NCBI RefSeq assembly: GCF_029223525.1
Contig: NZ_JARHTQ010000022.1
Location: 62,001 to 126,000 of the forward strand
Direction: 5' to 3'
Source of the DNA: Streptantibioticus ferralitis
GTDB lineage: Bacteria > Actinomycetota > Actinomycetes > Streptomycetales > Streptomycetaceae
Length of the DNA: 64,000 nt
In this document: piece by piece, positions 28,824-63,488 of the stretch
Layout: the number at the start of each line of letters is the position of its first letter
Position numbering within the stretch: position 1 is the stretch's first letter
The notes under the pieces: generated by a model
The model's input: only the letters and a program-made list of their open reading frames with translations
Told to the model about the DNA's origin: nothing
Database searches by the model: none
Translations under genes and position numbers: made by a program

Positions 28824-28875
28824 GGTGCAGTGATCCCTTCACCGGCAGGAACGTGCCGGACGATCCGAGTAAAGG

Positions 28876-28891
28876 AAAGGTCTAGTCCACA
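28876..28891. promoter_or_regulatory. dre-like DasR operator upstream of msiK
   Basis: AAAGGTCTAGTCCACA matches the 16-bp dre consensus ACTGGTCTAGACCACT at 12 positions, with the GGTCTAG core intact. The same core variant GGTCTAGTCCAC occurs at the nagK promoter (57802-57817). Confidence 0.6.
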
Positions 28892-36507: not shown

Positions 36508-36975
36508 TCACCGGTGGTCGCGTGCCGCGTCCTCCAACATCCTTGCCACCGAAAGCCGCAGATCGAAGTGGCGAGCGATCCAGGGCGCGTCGTAGCCCTG
36601 CGTGGCGAACACCCAGGCGACATGCAGGCGGTTGAGACTCGGCGCGTCGGGGCCGCAGAGCGTGGCGTCCAGGGCGTCCGCGGGGAAGCCGGTCAGTGTC
36701 GTGGCGGGGAACCATGACTCCTCTGCCGTGGCCAGGACCGGTTGCAGTACACGGGCCGTGGCGCGCCGACGCCGTCGTACGGCGCCGAACACGGCGACGG
36801 CGGCGATGACCGCGCCCGCCACGGCGGCGACGGCGAACACCCCGCCGAGCGAAAGCCCTTCCGGGCGTGGAAGGAAGGCCTGCGCCATCAGTGTCATTCC
36901 GGCCACCACCATCCCGGCCCGCGACGCCGTCACCAAGGTGATGCCCGGCATGGCGCGACTCTCACGCGCGTTCAT
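36508..36975 (-). CDS. Membrane protein with C-terminal QGYDAxW module
   Basis: 155 aa, last gene of the M-box operon. Two TM segments, AGMVVAGMTLMAQAFL (about 20-35) and GGVFAVAAVAGAVIAAVAVFGAV (about 44-66), are followed by RRRRR and a soluble tail. The last ~40 residues (RLHVAWVFATQGYDAPWIAR then HFDLRLSVARMLEDAA) align with the C-terminus of the 84-aa protein at 37986-38240. The ATG overlaps the stop of the upstream wHTH gene (ATGA), so the two are coupled. No named family recognised. Confidence 0.75.
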   Translation of the reverse strand: MNARESRAMPGITLVTASRAGMVVAGMTLMAQAFLPRPEGLSLGGVFAVAAVAGAVIAAVAVFGAVRRRRRATARVLQPVLATAEESWFPATTLTGFPADALDATLCGPDAPSLNRLHVAWVFATQGYDAPWIARHFDLRLSVARMLEDAARDHR

Positions 36976-37430
36976 CGCCGTTCATCACCGGTCGGGGGAA
37001 CGGTGGCGGGGGTGAAGCTGTAACCGACCTGGCGAACCGTGGAGATCAACTGCCGGTGGTCCGAGCCGAGTTTGCGCCGGAGGCGAGCGATATGCACATC
37101 GACGGTACGGGTGTCGCCGACCGTGGGCTGGTTCCATACGGCGGCGATCAGCTGGGCGCGGCTGTGCACCCGGCGGGGGTGCGCGACCAGATGCGCGAGG
37201 AGTTCGAATTCCAGATACGTGAGTTTGAGTACCCGGCCGCTGATCGACGCCACACGGCGCTCACTGTCGACGCTCAGGCCAGGGGCTGAGGACACCTCGG
37301 GAACGGTGGAACTCTCCACGAGGCAAGCTGACTTGGGTACCGGCCGGGGCGCTTCGGGCGCTGGGACGGCCCGGAAGGGGGGTATGAGAACGGCGCGGCG
37401 GCGGTGGGCTCGGGGGTAGCGGACGGGCAT
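36972..37430 (-). CDS. Stand-alone OmpR/PhoB-type winged-helix DNA-binding protein
   Basis: 152 aa. Only the effector domain is present (about 55-140): RVLKLTYLEFELLAHLVAHP, RVHSRAQLIAAVWNQP, TRTVDVHIARLRRKLG and STVRQVGYSFTP match the OmpR C-terminal fold, including the recognition helix. No receiver domain precedes it; the N-terminal ~50 residues are Pro/Arg-rich. AAGGAG lies five bases before ATG 37430. As third gene of the M-box operon it could be the operon's own regulator or link Mg2+ status to other genes; inference. Confidence 0.85.
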   Translation of the reverse strand: MPVRYPRAHRRRAVLIPPFRAVPAPEAPRPVPKSACLVESSTVPEVSSAPGLSVDSERRVASISGRVLKLTYLEFELLAHLVAHPRRVHSRAQLIAAVWNQPTVGDTRTVDVHIARLRRKLGSDHRQLISTVRQVGYSFTPATVPPTGDERR

Positions 37431-37468: not shown

Positions 37469-37936
37469 TCAGCCGGCTACGGCACGGGACCGGGGCGGGG
37501 ACGGAGGATCCACGTCCGCCGCGCTCCAGCGCACATCGTGGACGCCCGGCTGCAGGAAGAGCCGGGAGACCAGGGGCTCGACGGCCGGAGCGGGCGCCCC
37601 GTGCACGGTGACCGCGGCCCGGAACTCGACGGTGCCATCGACGTGCCGCGCACGCAGCCCTTCGTAACGCAGGCCAGAGGTGGCCAGGACATCGCTCAGC
37701 AGCGCGCGGACCCGGACCTCCTGGCGCACGTCGCACACCAAGTGCACGGTGACGGCGCTACGTTCGCATGCGCCGTGCGGCAGGGACGCGGTGCGCGCGG
37801 CCGGCCGCAGCGCGGTGACGACCGGGCTGTGCAGCGGCGAGTCGGCGATCCGGTTGAACGCGTCGGCGAAGAAGCGCCGTAGCCGGGCGGCCGTCGCGGT
37901 ACGCAGGAAGCGGGCAGTGGTGATCGTCACGGTCAT
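37469..37936 (-). CDS. Free-standing domain resembling the MgtC C-terminal (ACT-like) domain
   Basis: 155 aa, soluble. After ~60 residues, a beta-alpha pattern runs AVTVHLVCDVRQEVRVRALL, SDVLATSGLRYEGLRARHVD, GTVEFRAAVTVHG, AVEPLVSRLFLQPGVHDVRW. The ending L-x-L-x-P-G-V-x-x-V-x-W is the signature end of MgtC-family C-terminal domains. The MgtC membrane part is absent. GGGAGGTG lies just before ATG 37936 (MTVTITTARF). Its location under an Mg2+ riboswitch strongly supports a link with magnesium limitation, where MgtC proteins act on ATP synthase or phosphate uptake; the specific role here is unknown. Confidence 0.65.
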   Translation of the reverse strand: MTVTITTARFLRTATAARLRRFFADAFNRIADSPLHSPVVTALRPAARTASLPHGACERSAVTVHLVCDVRQEVRVRALLSDVLATSGLRYEGLRARHVDGTVEFRAAVTVHGAPAPAVEPLVSRLFLQPGVHDVRWSAADVDPPSPPRSRAVAG

Positions 37937-37985: not shown

Positions 37986-38240
37986 TCAGTGGGAAGCGCG
38001 CGCTGCCGCTTCGGTGATGCGACGGGCAGCCGTCGACGGCAGTTCGGCGAACCGCGTCAGCCAGTGCGCGTCGTACCCCTGGCGGGCGAGGACGTACGCG
38101 GCGTGCACGAGCCGGTCGTAGACCGGGCCGCCGAACCCCGTGGCCGTCGAGGGTGGCGTGTCGAGCAGGTAGTCACGCTCAACACCGTCGAACAGCGCGA
38201 GGCGGACGGTGGGCGTACGGCGAAGGGTCAGTACGGTCAT
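37986..38240 (-). CDS. 84-aa protein with QGYDAxW module, first gene of the M-box operon
   Basis: Start ATG 38240 (MTVLTLRRTPTVRLALFDGV) is chosen because GGAGGTGA lies about eight bases upstream; an upstream ATG at 38303 has no such site. A basic N-terminus leads to a C-terminal helical module (RLVHAAYVLARQGYDAHWLT then RFAELPSTAARRITEAA) shared with the last gene of the operon. The module has a helix-turn-helix-like rhythm but no family is recognised. It lies 49 bp from the MgtC-like gene and about 110 bp after the leader ORF. Confidence 0.75.
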   Translation of the reverse strand: MTVLTLRRTPTVRLALFDGVERDYLLDTPPSTATGFGGPVYDRLVHAAYVLARQGYDAHWLTRFAELPSTAARRITEAAARASH

Positions 38241-38350
38241 GGAGGTCACCTCCAGGAAGGGGGACGCGAGGGCATGACGGAGCCCCCGCAGCGCGCGGGA
38301 CATCGGTCAACTGCGGTGCGAACCGAGCCGTGACCGGAAGCCGACGTCGG

Positions 38351-38473
38351 CTAACGGAATGTGGAAGGGCGCGCGGAACGCGGCGCCGGACACGGTGGGT
38401 ACGAACGCGGAGCGGGCCAGGGGCGGGGCCGACTATGGCCCGGACTACTCGGCGTAGTGCTACTGCGATCCAT
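38351..38473 (-). CDS. Proline-rich 40-aa leader peptide between M-box and operon
   Basis: ATG 38473 has GGAAGGAGG eight bases upstream, the best ribosome site in the operon. The 40-codon ORF ends at TAG 38351 and contains 11 prolines (for example SRPRPWPAPRSYPPCPAPRS), with P-P and P-x-P clusters. There is no signal peptide or conserved domain. Its position right after the riboswitch and before the first structural gene is that of a regulatory uORF. Proline-rich leader peptides are known in enterobacterial Mg2+ genes (mgtL), where proline translation or ribosome destabilisation controls expression; a similar role here is inference. Confidence 0.7.
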   Translation of the reverse strand: MDRSSTTPSSPGHSRPRPWPAPRSYPPCPAPRSARPSTFR

Positions 38474-38570
38474 GTCTGTCGCCTCCTTCCGGCCGGGGCC
38501 GCGCGTCATGCGCGTCATCATCGACTCGGCAAGGAGCGGACCGGCCCGTCGACCGACCGGCTCACCCCAA

Positions 38571-38747: not shown

Positions 38748-38782
38748 AGTATAAGCAGCTACTTGCGTATCGACGCAAGTAG
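38748..38782 (-). promoter_or_regulatory. Promoter and 24-bp palindrome upstream of the M-box
   Basis: TATACT (minus strand, 38753-38748) is a good -10 box about 24 bp before the aptamer. Just upstream lies a perfect palindrome with 10-bp arms, CTACTTGCGT (38759-38768) and ACGCAAGTAG (38773-38782), covering the -35 area. It lies two bases beyond the stop of the serine hydrolase gene, so it could be that operon's terminator, an operator for the M-box operon, or both. Confidence 0.6.
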
Positions 38783-63130: not shown

Positions 63131-63338
63131 CTGCGCGTCTCCCTGGCAGCAGAACCATGCATGTGATCCATCTCGCGGTTCGGACGACTATCTCGACTGT
63201 CCGACCCTTCGGTTACAGTCTTGAGCAACGCGCGTGACGACCGCATGCCGGGGGTCAGCGCGCAAAAAACGCACTGGCCACGGCTGGCCGTCCGGGGGTT
63301 ACCTCCCGGGAATCGCAGCAGCACCCAGTGCCATAGAG

Positions 63339-63473
63339 CTCATCCAGAGGGACTGAGGGAACGGCCCGTTGACGTCCCGGCAACCCTCCTACCGGCCCGA
63401 CCTGCGAGACGAGGCCACGGTGGGGAAGGTGCCAATTCCGGCCCGCGGCGAGACGCGCCGTGGGGAAGATGAG
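63339..63473 (+). ncRNA. SAM-I (S-box) riboswitch controlling thrC
   Basis: P1 is CUCAUC (63339-63344) with GAUGAG (63468-63473). Between them lie the S-box blocks AUCCAGAGGGACUGAGGGAA, CGGCCCGUUGACGUCCCGGC followed by AACC, GGUGCCAAUUCC and a variable P4 arm. They match the canonical motif (AGAG, GGAGGGA, GCCC, GCAACC, GGUGCUAAUUCC). The 3' strand of P1 overlaps the thrC Shine-Dalgarno GAGGAG, so SAM binding should hide the ribosome site. Confidence 0.93.
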
Positions 63474-63488
63474 GAGAGGCCTCGCCAT

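Follow-up and report, generated by a model that had tools for sequence, protein, structure and literature searches.

A conserved short leader ORF follows M-box riboswitches in Streptantibioticus ferralitis and other actinomycetes

What does a short open reading frame (ORF) do when it lies between a Mg2+ riboswitch and the operon that follows it? The question is raised by the window, i.e., the whole stretch of 64,000 nucleotides of Streptantibioticus ferralitis DNA analysed here, in which the first-pass annotation had described a proline-rich leader ORF and suggested two-layer Mg2+ sensing through its proline codons. The ORF is present as described (38473-38351, minus strand, as are all the features below unless indicated; MDRSSTTPSSPGHSRPRPWPAPRSYPPCPAPRSARPSTFR): it has 40 codons, 11 of them for proline, and its own Shine-Dalgarno sequence (SD; AAGGAGG, 38482..38488, 8 nt before the ATG), and it lies between a riboswitch and gene 1. 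The riboswitch is an M-box: cmscan places the RF00380 aptamer at 38731-38559 with 132.2 bits (E 1.7e-29), above the gathering cut-off of 44. The ORF starts 86 nt after the end of the aptamer, and 110 nt separate its stop codon from the ATG of gene 1 (38240), matching the distance of about 110 bp first given. Two details had been overstated: the ORF contains a single Pro-Pro pair rather than several, and its SD is not the strongest of the operon by match length (7 nt, versus 8 nt for GGAGGTGA of gene 1). On the 5' side of the M-box, a perfect 9-bp inverted repeat, CTACTTGCG-N6-CGCAAGTAG (38782-38759), is followed by TATACT (38753-38748). By eye they form a promoter-like region (38748..38782), where a consensus promoter scan found no match. 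A similar palindrome occurs in 6 of the 65 leaders compared from the window's family and in none of the 46 from the rest of the class, and the repeat is a possible operator. The window also contains a SAM riboswitch (63337-63475, plus strand, 76.9 bits) and an msiK RNA (28830-28885, 49.2 bits).

The operon has four genes. Gene 1 (84 aa, 37986..38240) matches no Pfam family at E 0.1. Gene 2 (155 aa, 37469..37936) has the MgtC/SapB C-terminal domain as its sole Pfam match (PF21770, E 3.3e-13), with no match to the membrane part. Gene 3 (152 aa, 36972..37430) encodes a winged-helix Trans_reg_C domain (PF00486, E 3e-25), and gene 4 (155 aa, 36508..36975), whose start overlaps the end of gene 3, has no Pfam match over the cut-off. 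Read by eye, genes 1 and 4 have a common GYDA(H/P)W(L/I) stretch near the C-terminus. A hairpin, GGAGG-UGA-CCUCC (38241..38253), identical in the window-type leaders L003, L007 and L008 (numbers with L denote loci), would hide the SD of gene 1; it folds at -9.2 kcal/mol (z -1.48), and 17 of 200 shuffles fold equally well. The genome contains three M-boxes, one of which precedes an Nramp gene (PF01566), and all three are followed by a short ORF with an SD: MDRSSTTPSSPGHSRP... in the window, MDCSSSSPGHSRPRIRLSSLTSGTR in L002 and MSPRPSPEPDPGQHPPFPSDRGFRAR in L001.

The arrangement extends well beyond this genome. Searches for RF00380 gave matches in all 3 genomes of the genus, in 43 of the 121 family genomes and in 26 of the 394 from the class (each figure includes the window's own genome), and 111 distinct leaders were compared, 65 from the window's family and 46 from the rest of the class (the aptamer of L094, missed by nhmmer, was positioned from the class-wide RF00380 search). 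Under a rule specifying an SD, a start and 15-80 codons at 35-175 nt after the aptamer, an ORF was called in 105 of the 111 leaders (shuffles, 15.9%; antisense strands, 10.8%); tightening the rule left 104, versus 2.5% of shuffles. Among the six leaders outside the automatic call, L011 and L032 have weak, G-rich SDs, and their ORFs were set by hand and included in the count, while L098, L103, L111 and L117 were counted as lacking a standard start. Loss of the frame among related leaders had been named beforehand as a result that would speak against the ORF; every one of the 65 family leaders has an ORF at this place (63 called by rule, 2 set by hand), as do 42 of the 46 others, with starts 43-156 nt 3' of the aptamer (median 86). 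L007 and L008 contain direct in-frame orthologues of the window ORF. The ORF is real and conserved, the combination of SD and ORF being far above chance, and it is most likely translated and gated by the M-box. In L111 and L117, mycobacterial by content, ATT replaces the ATG of the ORF, and the SD and core codons are kept.

A core near the start of the ORF recurs in these leaders. It corresponds to codons 9-16 in the window (SSPGHSRP, 38426..38449), and its pattern is found in 59 of the 65 family leaders and, in a looser form, in 35 of the 46 others; mycobacterial leaders have SPGDSPYP where the window has SSPGHSRP ("mycobacterial" denotes genus g20 of family f4, taken as Mycobacterium from its PE/PPE-like genes and peptides). 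Besides the window's family, the core pattern occurs in two further non-mycobacterial family groups (f17 and f18), and the named hosts of the leader-ORF family include Streptomyces, Kitasatospora, Streptacidiphilus, Streptantibioticus and Amycolatopsis. Within the window's genus, one genome shares an ORF with Streptomyces sp. RPT161, and two ORFs of another encode the same peptides as their counterparts in Streptantibioticus rubrisoli. The genes downstream of core-bearing leaders are of the Nramp, MgtE_N/CBS and mgtC types. The mycobacterial-type motif was found in 0 of 293 genomes of the window's order, most of them from one genus. Eight loci searched for other Rfam elements contained none but the M-box, apart from one sub-threshold nhaA-II match in L002.

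To measure the constraint on the ORF, we computed pN/pS on leaders found through the M-box only, which avoids ascertainment by the core pattern (earlier core ratios of 0.10 and 0.38 came from sets that included loci found by a pattern containing the core). The N-terminal ratio is 0.13 in 9 mgtE-type leaders, 0.42 in 37 mntH-type leaders, and 0.24 and 0.18 in sets of 8 and 13 chosen mycobacterial leaders compared codon by codon without alignment (leaving out L079 for its length difference, and L078, L081, L082, L099, L100 and L105 as near-duplicate or start-divergent). By genus, the mntH-type ratio is 0.22 in g3 (L047 omitted) and 0.75 in g14. The tail ratios are 0.89 (mgtE-type), 1.47 (mntH-type), 1.23 (g3), 1.58 (g14), and 1.69 and 1.08 (the two mycobacterial sets). 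In the earlier sets, frame-shifted controls gave tail ratios of 0.75 and 1.04 (mgtE-type), 0.81 and 0.98 (mntH-type), and 0.62 and 1.89 (window-type). The three window-type orthologues, which differ by few changes, have ratios of 0.57 (core) and 0.82 (tail). The choice of serine codons is also skewed: among codons 2-14, AGT accounts for 161 of 214 serines in family leaders and 89 of 165 in the others, versus 2 of 189 and 4 of 100 at later positions, and 4% in 33 long ORFs of the window. Taken together, the low N-terminal ratios and the AGT bias indicate, as far as sequence comparison goes, that both peptide and nucleotides are constrained at the start of the ORF. A hairpin inside the core (GGGCC-AUAGUC-GGCCC, 38426..38441) is possible and has partial support. 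Over 32 distinct cores, 87.5% of its cells are paired (slid controls, 27-68%), and the pair between two codon-third positions is C-G in 16, U-A in 4, U-G in 3, G-U in 2, G-C in 1 and unpaired in 6. Against a synonymous-codon null the signal is weak (median rank 0.09 over 56 leaders), and in L007 the folding of the core hairpin does not surpass that of recoded controls (rank 0.65).

The remainder of the ORF (38354..38425 in the window) is C-rich and G-poor, and in the window also rich in proline. C minus G over +30..+120 averages 0.221 in 96 leaders and is 0.222 in the window, versus 0.023 across 1140 control windows, whose 95th percentile is exceeded by 59 of the 96 leaders. This composition begins at codon 11 of the leader ORFs. 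Rho loading sites are C-rich, G-poor RNA, and the tail is rut-like in this respect; we found no intrinsic terminator pattern in the leader. Upstream of the ORF, a pyrimidine box (CTCCTTGCCG, 38527..38536) is a candidate anti-SD: a box able to cover the SD is present in 51 of the 65 family leaders and pairs with the SD region of the ORF in group consensus folds. Its contiguous pairing does not exceed that of shuffles (mean run 5.97 versus 5.57), and runs of at least 7 occur in 29 of 107 leaders, versus 21.9% of shuffles. The reading of the anti-SD as a strong helix was dropped, since it looks good in group folds but its run length is not above that of shuffles, and the box stays a candidate.

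Copies of the ORF also occur apart from any neighbouring M-box. A pattern combining SD and core matched 38 of the 121 family genomes (0 for the reversed-pattern control); G108:C5 and G089:C1 were judged by eye to be chance coding matches, leaving likely true matches in 37 of 121. Nine core loci away from the listed M-boxes had no M-box at E 0.1 or better, one of them, L126, ending just upstream. The scan of named genomes returned 57 stretches in Streptomyces, Kitasatospora, Streptacidiphilus, Streptantibioticus and one Amycolatopsis. By nhmmer, 39 of these have a full aptamer beside the ORF, 12 have none, 4 have a partial one, and 2 are cut; L136 and L139, where the locus stops short, were left aside. 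Running cmscan on the 16 loci without a full aptamer gave an M-box over the cut-off only in L158 (shortened, 44.9 bits) and L169 (about 1.1 kb upstream). Read by eye, L158, L162, L164, L166 and L180 retain different parts of the aptamer, suggesting that the M-box was likely lost several separate times. The 12 M-box-less loci comprise 10 that precede an MgtE_N-type gene (identified by motif), L152, which precedes an unrelated gene, and L180, whose ORF runs to the cut end of the locus. Pfam recognised MgtE_N and CBS domains in the five genes tested (L131, L132, L155, L183 and L184), none of which has a transporter domain match. An initial reading by eye of the downstream gene as an mgtE transporter gene was given up on this result; the MgtE_N/CBS protein could be a soluble regulator that binds Mg2+, not a channel. 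The order in L169 (Streptomyces tateyamensis) runs M-box, first ORF copy, mgtC, second ORF copy and MgtE_N-type gene. L184 has the same order, but no M-box was found there, and its genome has no RF00380 match in the family search. Pfam confirmed mgtC in both loci (PF02308 and PF21770) and the MgtE_N gene of L184, while that of L169 was identified by sequence resemblance. In L125/L152, the ORF copy follows an M-box-less promoter, and the gene 3' of it is unrelated, glyoxalase-like by eye. The identity of the core is kept in M-box-less leaders, although these loci were found by a pattern containing the core and are biased in its favour.

The mntH-type leaders have a feature of their own at the end of the ORF, which is mostly GGC ACG CGG TAA or GGC ATG CGG TAA. 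Among 57 ORFs with this ending, 48 have a recognised Nramp-type gene downstream, and 33 have an exact 7-nt downstream partner of the ORF end, versus 9.1% of shuffles. These partners covary (23 GGCACGC/GCGTGCC and 10 GGCATGC/GCATGCC). When G-U pairs are allowed, 43 of the 57 have at least 7 contiguous pairs, a count that has no shuffled control. The end of the ORF thus seems tied to a helix near the start of mntH in the mntH-type class, and this long-range helix is possibly a second attenuator. The helix between the ORF end and the region before mntH, in its ACG/CGT and ATG/CAT forms, was noted in L002, L010, L013 and other mntH-type leaders. A separate class of M-box leaders (L001, L004, L005, L006 and L069) has ORFs of the form MSPxxSPEPxxG..., with EPDP in L001. 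Their block before the ORF, which reads GACACC..GTGTCC-TGGCCG-(T/C)GAGGAGGTGAG in several, closely resembles mycobacterial leaders.

We favour, with a probability of roughly 0.58, the reading in which the ORF is the direct target of the M-box: its translation would shield the transcript from Rho, and the core would add an effect in cis on the ribosome. The conservation, the contrast between core and tail, the C-rich tail and the M-box-less copies are observed; for this organism we infer the following steps. At high Mg2+, the folded aptamer would let the pyrimidine box cover the SD of the ORF, which would then be silent, and with the C-rich tail naked, Rho would stop transcription ahead of the mgtC-type operon. 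With Mg2+ low, the SD would open, ribosomes would translate the ORF and cover the tail, and the operon would be transcribed. The core, selected as amino acids and also kept as nucleotides, would most likely bring in a second layer of control, acting in cis on the ribosome that translates it, because copies persist without an M-box before MgtE_N/CBS genes, twice between mgtC and such a gene. A bolder version makes the SPG(H/D)SxP core an autonomous second sensor, acting in cis within the first 10-16 codons at the level of the nascent chain or of the codons, combined with the M-box and still controlling MgtE_N/CBS genes alone after M-box loss; we regard this as possible but tentative. The core could instead be a small protein that acts in trans, e.g., on a transporter or on Mg2+ uptake, with the M-box simply controlling it as the operon's first gene. 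Selection at the amino-acid level and the existence of copies without an M-box are compatible with this, and a regulatory or structural peptide is what the authors of PMC12810186 suggest. We nevertheless consider a trans-acting peptide rather unlikely: only about 8-10 residues are constrained and the rest of the chain varies, the choice of serine codons is constrained as well, and each of the three M-boxes of this genome is followed by a copy, while two genomes have a second copy inside one operon, a multiplicity that a peptide acting in trans would not need. If, on the contrary, the ORF were a mere translated spacer for Rho control, with no effect of the peptide or on the ribosome, a C-rich tail that is free to vary in sequence is what one would see. 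Several families, however, show amino-acid constraint on the N-terminal part (0.13-0.42), and leaders without an M-box retain the core (with the bias noted above), which makes a pure spacer improbable.

The proline codons themselves suggest a further explanation, an mgtL-type sensor in which they slow ribosomes at low Mg2+ and prevent termination. The window ORF is indeed 27.5% proline, one of the two highest values among 107 ORFs, and 2 of the window's 181 ORFs 30-60 aa long reach its density. L001, the third M-box of this genome, is likewise followed by a proline-rich ORF, which contains EPDP (MSPRPSPEPDPGQHPPFPSDRGFRAR); PMC11552253 names proline together with acidic residues as the elements of mgtL. 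Yet neither proline density nor Pro-Pro is conserved: the median proline content is 13% in the family and 12% in the others, 7 of 65 and 3 of 42 ORFs, respectively, contain Pro-Pro, and the direct orthologues in L007 and L008 have 8 and 6 prolines in 43 codons and no Pro-Pro. The excess is marginal for the base composition of the ORF: at least 11 prolines occur in 4.8% of base shuffles of the window ORF (p 0.048), and in 16% when the tail alone is considered. The tail has 36 C in 72 nt, a C-rich, G-poor composition that results in many CCN codons, and it shows no clear constraint on amino acids, tail pN/pS ratios being about 1 across the sets. Proline richness is thus an incidental by-product of the C-rich tail, and proline as a conserved feature was ruled out by the family counts, the shuffles and the tail ratios. 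Since the polarity expected here is, moreover, opposite to that of mgtL, coupling through proline codons, as the first-pass annotation had proposed, is not supported, and we hold an mgtL-type sensor to be very improbable. Its broader idea of two-layer Mg2+ sensing loses the proline codons as second layer but stays plausible with the N-terminal core and the Rho-sensitive tail in that place. The conserved core, not proline, is the part that needs explanation.

The mycobacterial study (PMC12810186) left the role of the M-box leader peptide open; the present comparison adds a wider family and the residues under constraint. The Streptomyces relatives offer natural M-box-deleted and ORF-duplicated forms, and thereby a direct test of a riboswitch and a leader peptide acting in series.

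Among the known systems, the M-box of Bacillus subtilis ykoK shares the aptamer family RF00380 with the leader studied here but, according to PMC12810186, works through an intrinsic terminator, a pattern we did not find in this leader. In the mgtL-type leaders of enterobacteria, too, a short ORF precedes a Mg2+ gene and Rho is involved. They differ in that efficient translation of mgtL leads to repression of mgtA, according to PMC11552253, whereas translation is expected to permit expression here, where the sensor is a separate M-box and proline is not conserved. PMC8092293 describes Salmonella mgtQ, located between mgtC and mgtB, as a short ORF that has Asp2 and frees the ribosome-binding site of mgtB. 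The likeness lies in Asp2 (54 of the 65 family leaders; most mycobacterial leaders have Ser2), in the place between mgtC and a Mg2+-related gene, and in the overlap with possible stem-loops. We claim no sequence relation. The window ORF has no acidic residue at position 5 (in mgtQ-type ORFs, acidic residues at 2 and 5 destabilise the ribosome), and the gene 3' of the copies here is MgtE_N/CBS, not a transporter ATPase.

The closest counterpart is Rv1805A/uORF2 of the M. tuberculosis pe20 leader. D'Halluin et al. (2026; PMC12810186) describe an M-box that controls a conserved upstream ORF (uORF) with a translational platform and Rho-dependent termination, report its expression in lacZ fusions and a homologue without an M-box, and in their model translation of the uORF goes with an active operon. 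According to the same source, the main termination site precedes the uORF, and Rho termination may therefore be independent of uORF translation; the peptide is stated to be specific to mycobacteria, from nine representative mycobacterial genomes. Our comparison uses the pattern of the mycobacterial leaders, Rv1805A itself not being in the set by name; the window's SPGHSRP fits the pattern S-P-G-x-S-x-P, in peptides too short for homology to be proved by score. Among open-licence PMC papers, we found no report of a leader ORF of this kind outside mycobacteria. The two share an M-box aptamer followed by a short ORF with an SD, a conserved N-terminus with Pro7, a homologue outside the M-box context and mgtC in the operon. 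The family described here differs in extending beyond mycobacteria, in having its constraint confined to the N-terminal part, and in including M-box-less copies before MgtE_N/CBS genes.
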